This document shows positions 5,788 through 28,877 of a DNA stretch of 64,000 nt, piece after piece. Under the pieces are notes generated by a model, which saw nothing but the letters and a program-made list of their open reading frames with translations, did not search any database and was not told the DNA's origin. The stretch covers positions 1 through 64,000 of the forward strand of contig NZ_BCRM01000016.1 in assembly GCF_001552595.1 (NCBI RefSeq), in the 5' to 3' direction. The stretch comes from Rhodococcus erythropolis NBRC 15567. GTDB lineage: Bacteria > Actinomycetota > Actinomycetes > Mycobacteriales > Mycobacteriaceae. The first letter of the stretch is position 1, and the number at the start of each line of letters is the position of its first letter. Made by a program: the position numbers and the translations under genes.

Positions 5788-7239
5788 GTGTCCGAAGTCG
5801 CCGTCCTGACCGGATGGCCGATCTCCGACAGCGACGAACCGTTCCCTGGCCAGCCGCCACGCCATCCAAAGCCGCTGCGCCCCAGCGCGGCCGTGCAGTC
5901 CGGTGAGCGCGTCGTAGCCACCGCCACTGCCCCGGGGAGTGGCGAGGCCACGATCGGCTACAACGTCTCCGACGCACTTCGGCACAGCTGGATCGTCGGG
6001 CCGAATGGGGTCGGTAAGAGCACGTTGCTGCTCAATCTCATCGTGCAGGATCTCGAAGCCGGACGTCCGGTGGTCGTGATCGAGCCGAAGGATCTGGTCA
6101 ACGACGTCCTCGCGCGCATCCCGGACAGTCGCCGCGATGACGTCGTCGTGCTCGATCCGCTCGACGGCGCACCCGTCGGGCTGAACCCGATGGCGCGCTC
6201 GACCGACAAATCGTCTGCCGCACGGAGTCCCGAGCTGATCGCTGATTCGATGTTCGGGACACTGAGTGCCCTTTACGGGGACAGTCTGGGGCCGCGCTCG
6301 GCCGATATTCTGCGTAACTGCCTCACGGTGCTGGCTCGCCGCGACGATGCCTCACTGGTCATGGTGCCGCTGCTGCTCAGCAATCCAGGGTTCCGGCGCT
6401 CGCTGACGCAGCACGCGATGCGCGACGATCCGTTTTCCAGTGGTCCGTTTTGGCAGTGGTTCGAGTCGCTCTCACCTGAAGCAGCGGCCACCGTAGTAGC
6501 TCCGCTCGCCAACAAATTGAGGCCACTGCTCGCCAAACAACTACGAGCCGTTCTCGCCCAGCAGGCTCCGCGTTTCGACATTCGGCAGGTGCTCACCGAA
6601 CGAAAAGTCCTCTTGGTGCCCCTGCAGAAAGGGATTCTCGGGCCGGAGGTGGCGCAACTGCTCGGGGCCTTGGTGGTCGCGAATCTTTGGGATGCCATCA
6701 GGGAGCGGGTGTCGATACCGGAAGCCGAGCGGGAGCCGGTCATGGTCTTCATCGACGAAGCACAGGAATACCTCAAATTGCCCACTGATCTCGGCGATGT
6801 TTTGGCAACCGCGCGAAGTTTGCGCTGCGGAATGCATCTGGCTCACCAGTTCCAGATGCAGCTGCCGAAACCAATGCTCGACGCCTTCCGCAACAACGCT
6901 CGTTCCCGCATCGCGTTCCAACTGGCGTCCGGCGATGCCCGTGACATGGCGGCGGGGCAATCAGCGCTGACGGCGGAAGATTTCGGTGCGCTGCCTGCCC
7001 ACCACATCTACGCCCAACTGGTTCGCGACAACTCCGTCCAGCCGTGGGCCTCGGGGGTCACTCTCCCAGCGCCTCCGATCACCAGCGATCCCGAGGAGAT
7101 ACGACAGCTCAGCCGTGCTCGATTCGGGCAACCTCTGGGCGACATCGAGGCCGGGTTTGCCGATCTTCTCGATCACGTCCACCAGCCCGCACAAGGGACA
7201 CCGACCGCTGGACATGGACGGAAAGCGAGGCGCTCATGA
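5788..7239 (+). CDS. HerA/TraG-like DNA-translocating ATPase, possibly 5'-truncated
   Basis: A 483-residue P-loop ATPase. Walker A is GPNGVGKST (residues 71-79), followed by VIEPKDLVNDVL. Walker B is VMVFIDEAQEYL (about 316-327), and a conserved 'ATARSLRCGMHLAHQFQMQLP' sensor region follows, split over two motifs. This arrangement is typical of the type IV coupling / HerA helicase group found in actinobacterial integrative elements, where the enzyme moves DNA during transfer or replication. The usual family members are longer with an extra N-terminal region. Here the only start is a GTG at 5788 that overlaps its own GGGAG, which suggests a lost or misread 5' end. The stop overlaps the next ATG (ATGA). 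Confidence 0.75.
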   Translation: MSEVAVLTGWPISDSDEPFPGQPPRHPKPLRPSAAVQSGERVVATATAPGSGEATIGYNVSDALRHSWIVGPNGVGKSTLLLNLIVQDLEAGRPVVVIEPKDLVNDVLARIPDSRRDDVVVLDPLDGAPVGLNPMARSTDKSSAARSPELIADSMFGTLSALYGDSLGPRSADILRNCLTVLARRDDASLVMVPLLLSNPGFRRSLTQHAMRDDPFSSGPFWQWFESLSPEAAATVVAPLANKLRPLLAKQLRAVLAQQAPRFDIRQVLTERKVLLVPLQKGILGPEVAQLLGALVVANLWDAIRERVSIPEAEREPVMVFIDEAQEYLKLPTDLGDVLATARSLRCGMHLAHQFQMQLPKPMLDAFRNNARSRIAFQLASGDARDMAAGQSALTAEDFGALPAHHIYAQLVRDNSVQPWASGVTLPAPPITSDPEEIRQLSRARFGQPLGDIEAGFADLLDHVHQPAQGTPTAGHGRKARRS

Positions 7240-8231
7240 CCGACACGCATCAGGAGAACCAGTCGAATGATGGTGTTGCAGTGGCTGGTTCGTTCGCGTC
7301 GACATCCACCCCGTTATCTGCGCCGGTCACAGTTGAATCCACCCCTGTACGGGACGGGACTGATGCTGCCATTCCTGGCAGCACACCAGCGCGCGACCAG
7401 CCCGCGCGGACACGGACCCGCGACCTCAGTTCGATTGCCGACCGCCTCAGCGAGCGAGACTGGGCAGTACTGAGATCCGTCGCCGCACACCGCTTCCTGA
7501 CCACTGCGCAGATCACCCGGCTGCACTTTGCCGGCCACGCCGATACCTCCGGACCAGTACTGGCTCGGCGTACCTTGGGGCGGCTGCGCTCTCGGCGACT
7601 CCTCGCCACGTTGGAGCGGCGTGTCGGCGGCGTCCGGGCGGGCAGTAGCGGATTGGTCTACCACGTCGATGTCGTCGGTGACCGGATCCTGAGGCGCGAG
7701 AGCGGCCGCACCTCGCGTCGCCGGTTCAGCATCCCGAGTCCGACCTTCCTCCGGCACACCCTGGCCATCGCCCAGACCCATATCGAGCTCCTGGAAGCGA
7801 GCAGGGCGGGCCAGTGCGAACTGGTGCGCTGTGAGATCGAACCGGCGTCGTGGCGGCGACATCTCGGGCTCGGCGGCGCGCGGTTAACGCTCAAGCCGGA
7901 CTTGTTCGCCGAGACCGCCACCGATCGCGGCAGCGCCTTCACCACCAGCTGGTTCATCGAGGTCGACCTCGGCACTGAACACCAACCGACGTTGCTACGA
8001 AAATCCCACGACTACGACGCCTACTACCGCTCCGGCACCGAACAAGCCGAGCACGGTGTCTTCCCGCTGGTGGTCTGGATCATGACTGCCAGCACCTCAA
8101 AAGCGGCCGAACGCCGCTGCACCGCACTGCGTCAGGCTATCGACAAGGACCAGCGCCTCGAGAGCGCACTGTTCCACGTCATCACACCTGACCAACTGAT
8201 CTCACTCGTACAGAACGGAGGTACCCGATGA
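7236..8231 (+). CDS. Replication-relaxation family protein
   Basis: A 331-residue protein of the replic_Relax type seen in actinobacterial plasmids and integrative elements. Residues 1-65 are a low-complexity Thr/Ser/Pro-rich leader. A winged-helix-like DNA-binding part follows (about 70-135, 'LSERDWAVLRSVAAHRFLTT' then 'QITRLHF' and 'RRTLGRLRSRRLL'). The C-terminal half has the 'FLRHTLAIAQTHIEL' and 'KPDLFAE ... WFIEVDLGTE' motifs, the latter resembling a nuclease-like D-E-x-D core. Family members are linked to plasmid replication or DNA relaxation. The ATG at 7236 overlaps the ATPase stop, and an open frame upstream of it is ignored. It ends overlapping the methyltransferase start. Confidence 0.75.
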   Translation: MTDTHQENQSNDGVAVAGSFASTSTPLSAPVTVESTPVRDGTDAAIPGSTPARDQPARTRTRDLSSIADRLSERDWAVLRSVAAHRFLTTAQITRLHFAGHADTSGPVLARRTLGRLRSRRLLATLERRVGGVRAGSSGLVYHVDVVGDRILRRESGRTSRRRFSIPSPTFLRHTLAIAQTHIELLEASRAGQCELVRCEIEPASWRRHLGLGGARLTLKPDLFAETATDRGSAFTTSWFIEVDLGTEHQPTLLRKSHDYDAYYRSGTEQAEHGVFPLVVWIMTASTSKAAERRCTALRQAIDKDQRLESALFHVITPDQLISLVQNGGTR

Positions 8232-8860
8232 TCACCAATCCCACCGAACATCACACCCTGCCAGGTGAACTCAACGATCCCGGCAAGCCGACGAAGTACC
8301 GGACCATCCTTGCCGACCCGCCATGGGACATCCAGCAAAAAGGCGGCCGTGGCGCCAGCCGCCACTACAACCTCATGGGCCTCGACCGGATAAAGAACAT
8401 GCCCATCGCCGCTTTGGCCGACGACAATGCCCACCTGTGGTTGTGGGTCACCAACGCGACCCTGCGCGACGGTTTCGACGTCATGGAAGCCTGGGGCTTC
8501 ACGCCGCGCTCGCCACTGACATGGGTCAAACCGCGCATCCAACTGGGCAACTATCTGCGCAACGCCACCGAACACCTACTGTTCGGCACGCGCGGGCGGG
8601 CACCGGTCAACTACCGCAGTCAACCGACCTGGATGTTCGCACCCTTGCAGGACCACTCGCACAAACCCGAAGAACAGTACGCCGTCATCGAACGCGTGAG
8701 CCCCGGCCCGTATCTGGAGTTGTTCGCGCGTCGAGCGCAGCCGGGCTGGGACGCGTGGGGTAACCAGATCGACTCTGCCGTCACGATTCCCGGCTATCCG
8801 GTGCCCTTGGACGTTAACACTCACACACTGAAGCCACTGCCGCACAGTCGGGTGACGTAG
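8228..8860 (+). CDS. MT-A70 family adenine methyltransferase
   Basis: A 210-residue methyltransferase. The catalytic DPPW motif is at residues 30-33, with 'YNLMGLDRIKNMPI', 'HLWLWVTNATLRDGFDVMEAWGF' and 'EHLLFGTRGR' downstream, all hallmarks of the MT-A70 (METTL3-like) family. It should transfer a methyl group from S-adenosylmethionine to the N6 of adenine. In mobile elements and phages the target is usually DNA, which protects the element or escapes host restriction. No restriction enzyme is nearby, so it is a solitary enzyme. The start overlaps the preceding stop by 4 bases. It is followed by an 83-base gap. Confidence 0.88.
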   Translation: MITNPTEHHTLPGELNDPGKPTKYRTILADPPWDIQQKGGRGASRHYNLMGLDRIKNMPIAALADDNAHLWLWVTNATLRDGFDVMEAWGFTPRSPLTWVKPRIQLGNYLRNATEHLLFGTRGRAPVNYRSQPTWMFAPLQDHSHKPEEQYAVIERVSPGPYLELFARRAQPGWDAWGNQIDSAVTIPGYPVPLDVNTHTLKPLPHSRVT

Positions 8861-9531: not shown

Positions 9532-9918
9532 ATGACACCAGAACAGCTCTATCAGCTCACCAAAACGCTGCGCGAAAAACGTGAATCGCTCGGATGGTCG
9601 GCCAATGAAGTTGGTCGCCGTCTCGGCATCAGCGCCGCAACCTACTGGCGGATTGAAACCGGCCAGATCACCAGCCCGAAACCAGAGACACTCCAGGCGA
9701 TTGGCGACGTGCTCGGCATCCCTGTCGGCGACCTCTTCGCCAGCGCTGGTTGGATGCCCGAACAGGAGCTACCCAGCCTGCGCCCATACCTGCGCACCAA
9801 GTACCACCTGTCGCCAGAAGCTATGCGCGAGATCGAAGCGCACTTCGACGAAGTCGGACGCAAACACGGCATCAGCTTCAGTCCAGAAAGTGGCCCTCGG
9901 GCTGGTGAAGACGAATAA
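9532..9918 (+). CDS. XRE family transcriptional regulator
   Basis: A 128-residue regulator. A Cro/C1-type helix-turn-helix covers about residues 9-66 (LREKRESLGWSANEVGRRLG, 'ISAATYWRIETGQITSPKPETLQAIGDVLGI'). The C-terminal part (about 75-128) is probably the dimerisation or cleavage segment. It is followed 54 bases later by an ImmA/IrrE peptidase gene. In ICEBs1 the equivalent pair ImmR/ImmA controls excision and transfer: the peptidase cleaves the repressor after DNA damage. By analogy this protein should repress the element. The start follows CGGAGAC by about 9 bases. Confidence 0.85.
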   Translation: MTPEQLYQLTKTLREKRESLGWSANEVGRRLGISAATYWRIETGQITSPKPETLQAIGDVLGIPVGDLFASAGWMPEQELPSLRPYLRTKYHLSPEAMREIEAHFDEVGRKHGISFSPESGPRAGEDE

Positions 9919-9972
9919 ACAGCAGCCCCAACACAAAACAACAACCCGGCAGACGGGAGAGGAGGGAACACC

Positions 9973-10623
9973 ATGAGACCAGCACAGCAACCACAACATA
10001 CGAGCGTCCTCGCCAGTCTGCGCGCCGTCATCCCACGACGGGCCGACATCACCGTCGAAGAAACAATGCGCATCGCCGAACTCCAAGCCAACAAACTGCT
10101 CGAACAACACGGCATCACGCGCGGTGCAACGCCGACAGAAATCATCACCGAATTGCCGAAGATCGCGATCGCTTACACCAGCACTCTCGTTGCTGGAGCA
10201 AGTTACTGGGACTCAGTTCGACACATCTGGGTCATCCAGCTCTGCCGCTCAGACTCGTGGCGCAGACGGCGATTCACTCTGGCCCACGAGTACAAGCACA
10301 TCATCGACCACGGACGCACTACCGATCTTTATCGCGGTACCGAAAAGGTCTCCGCCGCAACCCATGCTGAGCGCGCGGCCGACTACTTCGCGGGCTGCCT
10401 TCTCGTCCCGAGACGGCTCCTTAAAAGAGCCTGGGGAGAAGGCATCCAGCACACCGACGCACTGGCGCACTTGTTTCAAGTCAGCGAGCAAGCAATCGGG
10501 GTGCGGTTGCGACAAATAGGACTCATCGACGACGTCGTACGACATGTGCGAATGGAATATCCAGGGCAAAACCACGAACGAACCGCATTCGCACCGCTAA
10601 CAGTAGAGGAGTTTGTACAGTGA
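9973..10623 (+). CDS. ImmA/IrrE family metallo-endopeptidase
   Basis: A 216-residue zinc peptidase. The HEXXH motif is HEYKH (about residues 105-109) in 'RRFTLAHEYKHIIDHG', with a further 'HAERAADYFAGCLLVP' helix that supplies the third ligand, as in ImmA and IrrE. A C-terminal helix-turn-helix-like segment (HLFQVSEQAIGVRLRQIGLI) is typical of the family. It should cleave a repressor, most likely the XRE protein encoded just upstream. The ATG at 9973 follows GGGAGAGGAGGG, a strong ribosome site. The stop overlaps the recombinase GTG by 4 bases, so peptidase and recombinase are made together, a simple link between repressor removal and excision. Confidence 0.85.
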   Translation: MRPAQQPQHTSVLASLRAVIPRRADITVEETMRIAELQANKLLEQHGITRGATPTEIITELPKIAIAYTSTLVAGASYWDSVRHIWVIQLCRSDSWRRRRFTLAHEYKHIIDHGRTTDLYRGTEKVSAATHAERAADYFAGCLLVPRRLLKRAWGEGIQHTDALAHLFQVSEQAIGVRLRQIGLIDDVVRHVRMEYPGQNHERTAFAPLTVEEFVQ

Positions 10624-12401
10624 ATGAGGCGAGTGCTCAAATGTCCGACAATGTCGCAGGCGACTACGGCAAGGTCGCCGTTTCGTACATCCGCGTCTCA
10701 ACGAAGGAACAAGCTGAACGTGACGGTGATCCGGAGGGGTACTCGATTCCGGCACAGCGTGAAGCGAATAGGCGCAAGGCCGCTGCAAAAGAGGCCATGA
10801 TCGTTGAGGAGTTCGTCGAACGAGGCGAGTCAGCGAAACATGCCGACTCACGCCCAGAATTACAGCGGCTTCTGCGATATCTCAAAGATCATCGAGTCGA
10901 CTACGTCATCGTTCATAAGGTTGACCGTTTGGCGCGCAATCGCCTCGACGACACGCAGATACATTGGGCGATCAAACAGGCTGGGGCTGAACTGGTTTCC
11001 GCGACCGAGAACATCGATGAGACGCCATCGGGAATGCTGTTGCACGGAATCATGAGTTCGATCGCAGAATTCTACAGTCGAAATCTTGCCTCCGAAGTCC
11101 ACAAAGGCATGGAACAGAAGGCGAAAACAGGTGGGACGCCAGGCAGAGCTCCTTTGGGTTATCTCAACGTCAGGAAAGTCAATTCGGAAGGCGTCGAAGT
11201 TCGTACTGTGGAAGTTGATCCGGCGCGGGCTGATCACATCACGTGGGCATTCAGCGCATATGCCACGGGTGCCTGGACTCTCAAGACCATGGCAGCCGAA
11301 TTGGAGCACCGAGGCCTCACCACTCGCCCGCCTCCGAAATTACCCGGCAGGCCAATCAAATACAACAGCCTGTACAGAATTCTCACCACGCCGTACTACA
11401 AGGGTGAAGTCGTCTATCGCGGCGTTTCGTACCCCGGCCGACACCGACCGCTTATCGATGAGGTGACGTGGTCGCGCGTGCAGGACGTACTCACCTCCCA
11501 TGCAACGGGGGAGAAGCAACGCGAGTTTCCGCACTACCTAAAGTCCTCAGTTTTCTGCGGCAAGTGCTCAAGCCGCCTGATAATTACCAATGCGAAGAAC
11601 CCGTCGGGCAAGATCTATCCCTACTTTGTCTGTCTCGGGCGGCACCAGAAGACCAACAACTGCCAACAGAAAGCTGTCCTCATCCGGGTTGTCGAGGAAT
11701 TAGTTGAGGATCACTACCGCACCGTGCAGCTCGACCGTCGGCTTGCGGATCAAATCGAAGCCATGGTGCATGATGATCTGCAGTCATTTCGACAAGCGGC
11801 AGACACCGAACGTCGCGCGCTGAGCACTCAGAAGGAGCGCTTGGAAAGCGAGCGAATGCGGCTACTTCAGGCTCACTACGCGGGAGCCGTGCCCGTCGAT
11901 CTGCTGAAGCAAGAGCAGGATCGGATTGCACGTAGCCTTGCTGGAATCGAGCAACGCCTCGACGCGTCGGCCATGCAATTCGATGCGTTTGACGCGTCTT
12001 TGCGGCGTGCTATTGACTACGCCGTCAACTGCTCGGTGGGCTACCGGCATGCCGGTAGCCTGCCGGGAGGTTCGCAGGTGCGTCGGCTCTTCAATCAGGC
12101 GTTTTTCGTCAAAATATTGGTCGACGAGGATACGGTTCGTGTCGAGTTGGCTGAGCCGTTCCGGACGCTACTCGGAGCCGAAGCGGCGATAGCAGCGCGA
12201 CGTCACGCCCAAGTGGCAGCAGCAGATAGTGAAGTGGATGTCGTCGACGCGGCACCCGAATCTGCCCCGTCTGCAACGGACGAAAGCGAAAACGAAAAAC
12301 CTACGACTCGTGTCGTAGGTTTGAAATTGGCTACTTTGGTGCCCCCGGCAGGATTCGAACCTGCGACCAAGAGATTAGAAGGCTCTTGCTCTATCCCCTG
12401 A
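10620..12401 (+). CDS. Large serine recombinase (integrase) ending inside tRNA-Arg
   Basis: A 593-residue large serine recombinase. The resolvase domain is at about residues 18-165, with catalytic Ser27 in YIRVSTKEQ and 'VDRLARNRLDDT'. The recombinase domain (about 180-290) has 'TPGRAPLGYLNV' and 'LYRILTTPYYKGEVVYRG'. A zinc ribbon (about 312-350) has CGKC and a later CLGRHQKTNNC. A coiled coil (about 370-445) follows. It catalyses site-specific integration and excision. The final part is not normal coding sequence. After an acidic Ala/Ser/Glu-rich stretch, the frame crosses the tRNA terminator and then the antisense of tRNA-Arg, giving FEPATKRLEGSCSIP. The natural C-terminus may be shorter or differ in the excised form. 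The start is GTG within GTGA; an internal ATG at residue 8 is an alternative. Confidence 0.88.
   Translation: MNEASAQMSDNVAGDYGKVAVSYIRVSTKEQAERDGDPEGYSIPAQREANRRKAAAKEAMIVEEFVERGESAKHADSRPELQRLLRYLKDHRVDYVIVHKVDRLARNRLDDTQIHWAIKQAGAELVSATENIDETPSGMLLHGIMSSIAEFYSRNLASEVHKGMEQKAKTGGTPGRAPLGYLNVRKVNSEGVEVRTVEVDPARADHITWAFSAYATGAWTLKTMAAELEHRGLTTRPPPKLPGRPIKYNSLYRILTTPYYKGEVVYRGVSYPGRHRPLIDEVTWSRVQDVLTSHATGEKQREFPHYLKSSVFCGKCSSRLIITNAKNPSGKIYPYFVCLGRHQKTNNCQQKAVLIRVVEELVEDHYRTVQLDRRLADQIEAMVHDDLQSFRQAADTERRALSTQKERLESERMRLLQAHYAGAVPVDLLKQEQDRIARSLAGIEQRLDASAMQFDAFDASLRRAIDYAVNCSVGYRHAGSLPGGSQVRRLFNQAFFVKILVDEDTVRVELAEPFRTLLGAEAAIAARRHAQVAAADSEVDVVDAAPESAPSATDESENEKPTTRVVGLKLATLVPPAGFEPATKRLEGSCSIP
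12297..12322 (-). terminator. Terminator of tRNA-Arg, lying inside the recombinase gene
   Basis: An 11-bp perfect stem (12297-12307 with 12312-12322) around a TCGT-type loop. On the minus strand it is followed by a T-rich stretch, as expected for a factor-independent terminator 15 bases after the tRNA 3' end. Confidence 0.75.
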
Positions 12402-12412
12402 GCTACGGAGGC
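12337..12412 (-). tRNA. tRNA-Arg (anticodon TCT)
   Basis: The minus strand folds as a full tRNA: acceptor GCCTCCG/CGGGGGC, D-arm GCTC-GAGC, anticodon loop CTTCTAA (anticodon TCT), T-arm GCAGG/CCTGC with loop TTCGAAT, discriminator A and encoded CCA. It is 73 nt plus CCA. A mismatch sits at the base pair closing the anticodon loop (C-T). It is the apparent attachment site of the integrative element, whose DNA lies at its 3' side. Confidence 0.95.
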
Positions 12413-27278: not shown

Positions 27279-28877
27279 TCAGATCAGCCACGCCGCAGCG
27301 TTGACGGGCAACTGACCGTCGACGAGTGGTGCGCTGCTCAACAGCAGCTGCCCGCTCGGCAGTGCGATCGGCACCTCCGTGGTGTTGAGAGCACAGATCA
27401 GACCGCCGCGTCGACGGAAAGCGAGGCAGCCGGGGGGACTGCCGTACCAATCGATGTCGGTGCCGGAAAACTCCGGCCTGGCGCTACGAAGTTCGAGGGC
27501 GGCGCGATACAGCGAGAGCATTGAGTCGACGTCCTCGATCTGAGCCTCCACGGTGAGCGTCGACCACTCGGCCGGCATCGGCAGCCAGGTGCTCGCACCG
27601 GTGGTGAATCCGAAAGGCGGCTCGGTTCCTTCCCAGGGAAGGGGCACTCGACAGCCATCGCGTCCTCTCTCGGCATGCCCGGATCGTTCCCAGACCGGGT
27701 CCTGTAGTGCATCGTCGGGCAGGTCGACGTTCGGCAGGCCGAGTTCGGCTCCGTTGTAGATGAAGCTCGCGCCCGGAAGCGCCAACTCGACGAGGATCAT
27801 CGCCCGTGCGCGTTGCGTTCCGATCTCGCCCCCGCCGTAGCGCGTGACTTCACGTTCGACGTCGTGATTCGACAGTGTCCACGTGGGCACACCCCCGACC
27901 TCGGCGACGGCCGCGAGGGAGTTCTCCACGGCCTCTCGGACGGACTCGGCGGAGAATTCGGTTTCTGCAAGCCGGAAGTTGAATCCGAGATGCAGTTCGT
28001 CTGGCCGGATGTATTCGCCGAACTTCTGGTTGTCCTTCACCCAGATCTCGCCGACGGTCATCGCCTCCGGGAACTCGTCCATGACCTTGCGGATGCCGCG
28101 GTGGATTTCGTGAACTGCCGGATTGTTGAACCGCGGGTCGTCGTCGGAATTGCGCATGAGCTCGTTGAGCTCCCAGTCGTGGTCCGGCAAACCGTCCGGC
28201 TTGGCCATTCCGTGGGCCACGTCGATGCGGAATCCGTCGATTCCGCGCTCGAGCCAGAAGCGCAGAGTCTTGGCGAGGTCGTCGAAGACCTCGGGGTTGT
28301 CCCAGTTCAGGTCCGGCTGTTCCTTGGCGAAGATGTGCAGGTACCACTGGCCGGGTGTTCCGTCGGCTTCGCTGACGCGGGTCCATGCCGGGCCGCCGAA
28401 GATGCTCGGCCAGTTGTTCGGCGGTTCGTTGCCGTTTTCACCTTTGCCGTCTCGGAAGATGTAGCGGGATCGCTCCGCAGAACCTGGCGCCGACGCCAGG
28501 GCTGCCTTGAACCACTCGTGCTGATCACTCGTGTGGTTCGGGACCAAGTCCATGGTGACCTTGATTCCGCGCTCGTGGGCTGACGTGATCAGCGAATCCA
28601 TCGTCGCCAGATCACCGAACAGGGGATCGATGTCGCGAGGATCCGAGACGTCGTAGCCGTGGTCTGCCATCGGTGACTTCATCACCGGGCTCAACCAGAT
28701 CGCGTCGATGCCGAGCAGCTCGAGGTAGCCGAGTTTCTCCTCGACTCCGCCGAGGTCGCCGATACCGTCACTGCCCGAATCGGCAAAGGAACGCGGATAG
28801 ATCTGATAGAAGACCGCCTCGTTCCACCACGGGGCTTCGGGCCGGCTTACAGAGGACGAATCCGCGGGGGTGCTCAC
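27279..28877 (-). CDS. aglA: Alpha-glucosidase, GH13
   Basis: A 532-residue GH13 enzyme, cytosolic (no signal). Region I is 'TMDLVPNHTSD'. The nucleophile Asp is in 'DGFRIDVAHG' (near residue 218), the acid/base Glu in 'TVGEIWV' (near 276), and the third carboxylate in 'TLSNHDVER' (near 338). It releases glucose from the non-reducing ends of maltose, sucrose or maltooligosaccharides. It corresponds to Rv2471. The start is a GTG at 28877 without a clear ribosome site. An 18-base palindrome lies just upstream and could be a sugar-responsive operator. Confidence 0.92.
   Translation of the reverse strand: MSTPADSSSVSRPEAPWWNEAVFYQIYPRSFADSGSDGIGDLGGVEEKLGYLELLGIDAIWLSPVMKSPMADHGYDVSDPRDIDPLFGDLATMDSLITSAHERGIKVTMDLVPNHTSDQHEWFKAALASAPGSAERSRYIFRDGKGENGNEPPNNWPSIFGGPAWTRVSEADGTPGQWYLHIFAKEQPDLNWDNPEVFDDLAKTLRFWLERGIDGFRIDVAHGMAKPDGLPDHDWELNELMRNSDDDPRFNNPAVHEIHRGIRKVMDEFPEAMTVGEIWVKDNQKFGEYIRPDELHLGFNFRLAETEFSAESVREAVENSLAAVAEVGGVPTWTLSNHDVEREVTRYGGGEIGTQRARAMILVELALPGASFIYNGAELGLPNVDLPDDALQDPVWERSGHAERGRDGCRVPLPWEGTEPPFGFTTGASTWLPMPAEWSTLTVEAQIEDVDSMLSLYRAALELRSARPEFSGTDIDWYGSPPGCLAFRRRGGLICALNTTEVPIALPSGQLLLSSAPLVDGQLPVNAAAWLI

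Follow-up and report, generated by a model that had tools for sequence, protein, structure and literature searches.

A Rhodococcus serine integrase gene that probably contains its own attachment site and is split on integration at tRNA-Arg

SSV viruses classically integrate at tRNA genes. Integrases of the SSV type, which are tyrosine recombinases, carry the phage attachment site (attP) within their own gene, and such self-disrupting enzymes are called exclusively archaeal in the part of PMC8371274 available to us. In Mx8 of Myxococcus, attP also lies within the integrase coding sequence, which acquires a new 3' end after integration (PMC6070905 and PMC4383910, as far as the available portions go). 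Serine recombinases at tRNA genes are described as rare in the available part of PMC3218068, which gives phiRSM1 (tRNA-Ser) and eight recombinases of Mycobacterium actinomycete integrative and conjugative elements (AICEs; tRNA-Leu), and as not known in that of PMC4383910; a preliminary description of the locus studied here had called such enzymes seldom described, and the combination is indeed rare yet published. A literature search that covered few subscription papers found no published serine integrase whose own gene contains attP. Here we analyze a window of 64,000 nucleotides from the soil bacterium Rhodococcus erythropolis NBRC 15567 (NZ_BCRM01000016.1, positions 1 to 64,000), in which a serine integrase gene runs into a tRNA-Arg gene. 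We put at roughly 0.88 the probability that attP lies inside this gene and that integration at the tRNA splits it, severing a tandem helix-turn-helix (HTH) domain from the enzyme.

The integrase is encoded by an open reading frame (ORF) of 593 amino acids (aa) at 10620-12401 on the plus strand. As the preliminary description had stated, this frame runs antisense into tRNA-Arg(TCT), a gene called by ARAGORN on the minus strand (Table 1); it crosses the 3' end of the tRNA and terminates within it, the final codons reading LVPPAGFEPATKRLEGSCSIP. Pfam finds Resolvase (3.6e-34), Recombinase (1.2e-8), and Zn_ribbon_recom (2.1e-8) matches, all above cut-off, in the order catalytic Resolvase, Recombinase, zinc ribbon, as in large serine recombinases of the integrase type; the only recombinase domains detected are of the serine class, with none of the tyrosine class. 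By phmmer the protein matches the TP901-1 and A118 integrases.

Position 1 of the window is also the first base of contig C16, one of 67 in the assembly, and the other end of the element therefore lies outside it. Among 28 genomes of the genus, 23 yielded a tRNA-Arg(TCT) gene, the window's own included, and the search for an empty site in relatives that had been proposed earlier succeeded in one of these genomes, G014. There the window-side flank matches at 96.2% over 1944 bp, the match ending at the core and tRNA 3' end; beyond the tRNA, G014 continues into host DNA that corresponds to C33:27582-27889 of the window's own genome (95%, query 1-313, starting at the core). The two flanks, separated in the window's genome, are adjacent in G014. 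Read antisense to the tRNA, the empty site (attB) is ..CTTG-TGGTGC-CCCC.., the element end in the window (attR) is ..ACTT-TGGTGC-CCCC.., and the far end (attL; L064:1813-1818 = C33:27894-27899) is ..CTTG-TGGTGC-TCCT... Comparison of the three places the crossover within the shared six bases, at the CCA end of the tRNA, with the centre dinucleotide not resolvable inside this core, and everything past the core in the window is therefore host DNA. A short core common to attP and attB, here of 6 bp, is a feature of large serine integrases.

Because the crossover falls in the core at the CCA end, the last 19 residues of the protein (PPAGFEPATKRLEGSCSIP) are host-encoded, and they match the empty-site DNA. 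The tRNA 3' end is thus the target and the tail of the integrated protein is host DNA, as the preliminary description had it; the finding of both attachment sites elsewhere, which would have refuted it, did not occur, as both element ends map to this tRNA. A displaced 23-bp tRNA end, sought in the window's own genome, returned whole tRNAs only, since no more than 6 bp are displaced. Searching for the core as the longest common string (minimum 7) missed these 6 bp, gave many off-site matches, and was replaced by the empty-site comparison. Acceptor-stem wobble as a mark of a crossover inside the tRNA was discarded, the 23 tRNA-Arg(TCT) genes of the genus sharing the same 3' end. In G025, a 37-bp near-copy of the tRNA-Arg 3' end lies 4.3 kb from that genome's tRNA-Arg(TCT) (L060:7817-7853) and probably belongs to a different island at the same tRNA, with a longer repeat.

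In the window, the codons with which the integrase frame goes into the core read ..A-T-L-V. On C33, an open frame of 152 codons starts with the core at position 27894, keeps the phase of the integrase, and ends at a stop. Since both ends stand in the same phase at the core, attP would lie inside the integrase gene and integration would split it; the excised circle would carry one integrase gene of 574 + 152 = 726 codons. The predicted structure of the orphaned piece consists of two three-helix HTH repeats, with predicted local distance difference test (pLDDT) values mostly of 80-87 in blocks 51-140 and of 70 in one block; the model overall has a pLDDT of 71.4 and a predicted template modelling score (pTM) of 0.37. 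Foldseek matches are weak, Cbp1 being the best (E 0.0088), followed by the bipartite DNA-binding domains of Mos1/Tc3 and Pax, and they give no function. Comparison of the piece between the window's genome and G016 shows 22 synonymous and 11 nonsynonymous codon differences in 153 codons, with 23, 8, and 4 changes at codon positions 3, 1, and 2, respectively; this synonymous and third-position excess argues that the piece is, or was until recently, under coding constraint.

Given an attachment core inside the integrase frame, the C-terminus must differ between the circular and integrated states, as the preliminary description supposed. It had the difference as the exchange of a short host-read tail; such a tail is indeed swapped in, but the swap is not limited to it, the 152-residue tandem-HTH domain being severed as well.

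Of 201 genomes, 53, among them the window's own, contain a relative of the integrase at E<=1e-10. Thirty of the loci were examined, and 27 of them include a tRNA, in most cases immediately beyond the integrase. We compared 31 right (integrase-side) ends, taken from 24 of the 30 loci and 7 others; the six loci omitted were L028, L030, and L034, which lack a tRNA, and L032, L033, and L035, which have one. Every one of the 31 integrase frames is open up to the core and enters it in one common phase (nominal binomial p 1.6e-15 against an expectation of 1/3, which is not a true probability, the sequences being related). At the ends compared, homologues do not end upstream of the tRNA, then, and the extra frame is more than the chance run that had been considered as an alternative. 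The targets are tRNA genes for eight amino acids: Arg (three anticodons), Ser (three), Leu (two), Ala (two), Val, Lys, His, and Met. Entry into the core of these tRNAs in the same phase accounts for the frequency of GFEPAT-like tails, whereas the extent of the frame past the core is set by the stop in the tRNA or flank and varies from 1 codon (G057#3) to 474 codons (a metagenome-assembled genome, or MAG, of the Micrococcales). In our reading, it is the position of the core and the sequence required after it in attP that set the phase, and the tail does not. The integrases of G022 and G050 are 97.4% identical over 534 aa and occupy different sites, tRNA-Leu(CAA) and tRNA-Arg(TCT), respectively.

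The HTH piece accompanies these integrases. With the piece from the window's genome as query, a match at E<=0.001 was obtained in 17 of 30 integrase-bearing genomes, and a profile of 23 pieces found 41 of the 201 genomes at E<=1e-8. At the latter threshold the piece is present in 23 of 36 genomes with an integrase hit of about E<=1e-20, versus 18 of the 165 others (Fisher p 1.2e-10; all p-values given here ignore shared ancestry). It lies on the same contig for 23 of 47 integrase hits, and in 20 of these 23 pairs the nearest piece is on the same strand, on the 5' side of the integrase, and 0.4-54 kb away, the range expected of element length. In one of the 20 (G057 at 3571377) the piece is of a different kind, a recombinase-like C-terminus that carries a single HTH, which leaves 19 that fit; in the G166 pair the HTH lies directly downstream, fused to the integrase. 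The Micrococcales MAG, from outside the order, has the same layout over 26 kb of one contig. Within the stretch examined, no integrase sequence lies beside 29 of 34 left (HTH-side) ends.

Three unsplit, in-frame junctions were found. G166 has a single uninterrupted ORF of 733 aa with Resolvase, Recombinase, Zn ribbon, and HTH_23 matches above cut-off, and shares its contig with a split relative at tRNA-Lys 48 kb away, an arrangement that a tandem array would produce. In G123 and G137, integrase C-termini (159 and 56 query residues, respectively) align to the last codon before the core and continue in frame into the HTH part. When the G166 junction was used to search 397 genomes of the order, 25 had matches, and only in G166 itself did the match cover the whole query in one frame. 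In that search G166:C21 resembled another unsplit gene, one with a stop ahead of the core; it was rejected when its upstream frame proved to be a membrane protein, not integrase. Resemblances to integrase ends noted by eye ahead of the G148 and G197 pieces were not borne out by tblastn, so neither was counted.

Viral contigs contained no relative of the window integrase. One of them, the prophage-like L179, matched the G166 junction query (82% over 111 residues) and was not used: its frame stops at the arm, no tRNA occurs in the 8.3 kb examined, and its HTH piece is unconvincing (E 0.0015). A 7.5-kb remnant element was seen at tRNA-Arg(CCT) in G016 (L178; G016:C33:366500-379000), where only the last 114 integrase residues match and the far-end HTH piece is still open and 93% identical. 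G057 (L013, L165, L098) carries clade integrases at tRNA-Leu and tRNA-His and a third in two pieces near 3571033-3572771, beside which, near 3569333, lies a recombinase-like C-terminus fused to a single HTH.

The sequences around the core suggest how the site may be read. In most pieces the core contains a GTG, a possible start codon, and in the tRNA the T-loop (antisense) places TCGAAC 16 nt after it. In left-end pieces (n=26) a TCGAAC-like hexamer stands at 21 nt with a mean of 5.04 matches of 6, against a background over all offsets of 1.53 (standard deviation 0.54) and a next-best offset of 2.54; this score is not independent, because the alignment was made by eye on a protein motif and includes several near-identical pieces. 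A DNA-only search of 33 left ends for GTG-N18-TCGAAC put the best site in the HTH phase in 29, and it picked the by-eye site in 24, all of them in the HTH phase. On the integrase side, GTTYGA lies 20 nt before the GTG, exactly in 22 of 31 right ends and with one mismatch in 7 more; in the Micrococcales MAG the arms have changed together, to TTTCTG and CAGAAA.

Rutherford et al. 2013 (PMC3783163, in the part available) showed that the zinc-ribbon motif of the LI integrase is 5 bp closer to the centre of the site in attB than in attP. Examined here on the tRNA/HTH half-site, the same 5-bp rule holds (16 versus 21 nt), if TCGAAC is taken as that motif, and the T-loop TTCGAAC is therefore probably the attB motif read by the zinc-ribbon module. 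Reading of so conserved a T-loop would explain why near-identical enzymes sit at different tRNAs and why S-N and G-L-[K/N] codons flank the core; these codons are probably conserved as attP arms too.

Several observations weigh against a split gene. The window's element is divided between two contigs, with one end on C33 and the other on C16, so that contiguity and gap size are unproven, and a circular form was not seen. Pfam HTH matches to the window's own orphaned piece are weak, all below cut-off. No piece lies on the contig for 24 of the 47 integrase hits, several of which are fragments or in broken assemblies, while G138 is a single contig without one; the same-contig pairs of G136#1 and G183 do not fit. 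At E<=1e-8, 13 of the 36 integrase genomes lack the piece, among them the strong-hit genomes G033, G068, G138, G143, and G149, and conversely the profile matches 18 genomes that have no strong integrase hit (three of these, G043, G108, and G182, carry weaker hits, and G123 carries an unsplit junction). The pieces G197b and G173_C18b are broken, and in G159 integrase remnants lie beside the HTH piece in three frames. The DNA-only picks are out of phase in 4 of 33 left ends, and a further 5 in-phase picks fall away from the by-eye site. In each of the matching phage (388) and plasmid (270) records, the best place has <60% identity to the integrase; no phage or plasmid record matched the junction query at E<=1e-8, and the HTH piece alone gave one weak plasmid hit and no phage hit.

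The alternative that survives best, which we regard as improbable, is that the HTH piece is a separate gene lying beside the integrase in the circle and starting at the core GTG or an internal codon, with the in-frame run incidental. HTH genes, as regulators or directionality factors, are often found near integrases, and the core GTG would be usable as a start codon in most pieces. Yet the integrase frames reach the core without a stop in every right end compared, the G166, G123, and G137 genes are continuous across it, and the DNA upstream of the GTG in the integrated state is host-derived and differs among pieces, so that this GTG has no conserved ribosome site. Slightly less probable again is the mechanism put forward in the preliminary description, in which the short host-read tail itself alters enzyme activity. 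Tails do differ by tRNA, the window's being replaced by PSAGFEPATLPLGEECSIP at tRNA-Arg(CCT), and a swapped C-terminus changes integrase behaviour in Mx8 (PMC6070905, in the part available); however, a tail of 1 to 474 codons is unconserved in length, and the phase follows from having to read on into the HTH part. Chance, with an unrelated HTH ORF on C33, a coincidental 6-bp match, and a meaningless ORF entering the tRNA, might appeal to the shortness of the core and the involvement of two contigs, but it is scarcely credible against an empty site with both flanks, 20 of 23 co-located pairs, the offset-21 motif, and the unsplit copies.

If attP does lie within the integrase gene, joining of the two ends in the circle would yield one 726-codon integrase with a C-terminal tandem-HTH domain, and the full-length enzyme would be expressed from this form. 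Recombination with the tRNA would cut the gene: the resident enzyme would keep the recombinase core, lose the HTH domain, and gain the 19 tRNA-read residues, while the HTH part would be left behind at the opposite end of the element until excision restored the gene. The truncated enzyme is expected not to be dead, unlike archaeal split enzymes, because all three recombinase domains of a normal serine integrase are kept. The least certain step is that the split acts as a switch, with the full-length form favouring integration or repressing its own operon, and the truncated form idle or kept for excision with a helper protein; the HTH domain might drive integration, repress the operon, or guard against excision. 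A bias toward integration or excision arising from the changed C-terminus, as suggested in the preliminary description, is plausible. Only tentatively, and at rather less than even odds, would we extend this to a widespread family with a T-loop target in which full-length enzyme, made from the circle only, drives integration, the truncated resident either cannot re-integrate or only excises with a helper, and gene splitting replaces or supplements a directionality factor.

The window holds the right part of an integrated, probably transmissible element (Table 1). Of the AICE hallmarks, Replic_Relax is strongly matched and the transfer ATPase weakly (TrwB-like), with no FtsK model among the Pfam matches; a mobilisable element and an AICE seem equally possible. 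The IrrE/M78 peptidase is presumably ImmA-like, and together with the HTH regulator (9532-10623) it resembles the ImmR/ImmA pair beside int in ICEBs1. A MacB/FtsX-type transporter is also encoded upstream of the integrase on the same strand. The hairpin within the integrase codons is a probable terminator for the tRNA, supplied by the element; terminator-like hairpins with z below -2 (simple shuffles) occur at 16 of the 31 right ends and are not universal. In the left part of the element, on the minus strand at L065:8843-10702 (C33:28842-30701 of the same genome), lies a Thoeris-like locus of anti-phage defence encoding a ThsB-type TIR protein (PF08937), a caspase-domain protein (PF00656), and a 184-aa ORF that looks SLOG-like by eye and has no Pfam or PADLOC hit. 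The start of the contig (window 1-1045) has lower GC, 0.515 in the first kilobase, and a repeat may be hidden at the C33/C16 break.

Table 1. Coordinates of features in and upstream of the integrase gene
Feature	Position in window	Strand	Basis
Putative DNA-transfer ATPase	5788..7239	+	weak TrwB_AAD_bind match
Replication-relaxation protein (Replic_Relax)	7044..8231	+	strong match
MT-A70 DNA methyltransferase of the element	8228..8860	+	
HTH regulator (Cro/CI type)	9532..9918	+	Pfam
IrrE/M78 peptidase, end overlapping the integrase GTG start (GTGA)	9973..10623	+	Pfam
Element-encoded integrase part, 574 codons: resolvase, recombinase, zinc ribbon, and linker	10620..12341	+	boundary by attR/attL/attB comparison
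Hairpin followed by T-run on the tRNA strand, within integrase codons	12297..12322	-	minimum free energy -15.9, z -3.9
Integrase-side attP arm GTTTGA	12319..12324	+	right-end comparison
attR core TGGTGC, common to attR, attL, and attB	12337..12342	+	sequence comparison
tRNA-Arg(TCT), integration target, still whole to ARAGORN after insertion	12337..12412	-	ARAGORN
Host-encoded tail PPAGFEPATKRLEGSCSIP and stop, antisense through tRNA-Arg; first base is shared core	12342..12401	+	identical DNA at the G014 empty site
T-loop antisense TTCGAAC, proposed zinc-ribbon motif of attB	12354..12360	+	motif and published rule

Serine integrases are generally held to owe their directionality to a single enzyme together with a separate directionality factor. 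If an enzyme rewrites its own gene when it integrates, it would have a second, hard-wired way to mark its state. The conserved T-loop motif also suggests a route by which one serine integrase fold could be retargeted among tRNA genes. Integrases taken from integrated copies would lack the C-terminal domain, and tools or annotations derived from them would test the truncated form only.

Among known systems, the LI/A118 integrase (PMC3783163; PDB 4kis) has the same order of domains, and its zinc-ribbon motif is likewise shifted outward by 5 bp in attP relative to attB, whereas attP in the gene and a C-terminal tandem HTH are not described in the part of that source available to us. The tRNA-Leu recombinases of AICEs, which are likewise actinobacterial, and phiRSM1 are serine recombinases at tRNA genes, but the available part of PMC3218068 mentions neither gene splitting nor a C-terminal HTH for them. 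Mx8 is bacterial, and integration changes the C-terminus of its integrase, giving an altered and not an inactive enzyme; it differs in being a tyrosine integrase, by implication in PMC4383910, which in the available part restricts the word integrase to that class. In the present clade, where the exchange for host-coded residues is deduced from sequence, the enzyme is a serine recombinase, the domain concerned can be recognised as a separate unit, and the targets are tRNA genes for eight amino acids. The SSV-type enzymes also have attP in the integrase gene, so that integration leaves N and C parts flanking the element, an arrangement that the sequence of the present locus reproduces for an inferred circle. 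They are archaeal tyrosine recombinases with the catalytic part in the C fragment; the Rhodococcus enzyme is a bacterial serine recombinase, and Pfam places all three recombinase domains in its N part and no catalytic domain in the stranded fragment, the part lost being an added tandem HTH. The enzyme works like a self-splitting integrase, yet it stands outside the SSV and Mx8 families.

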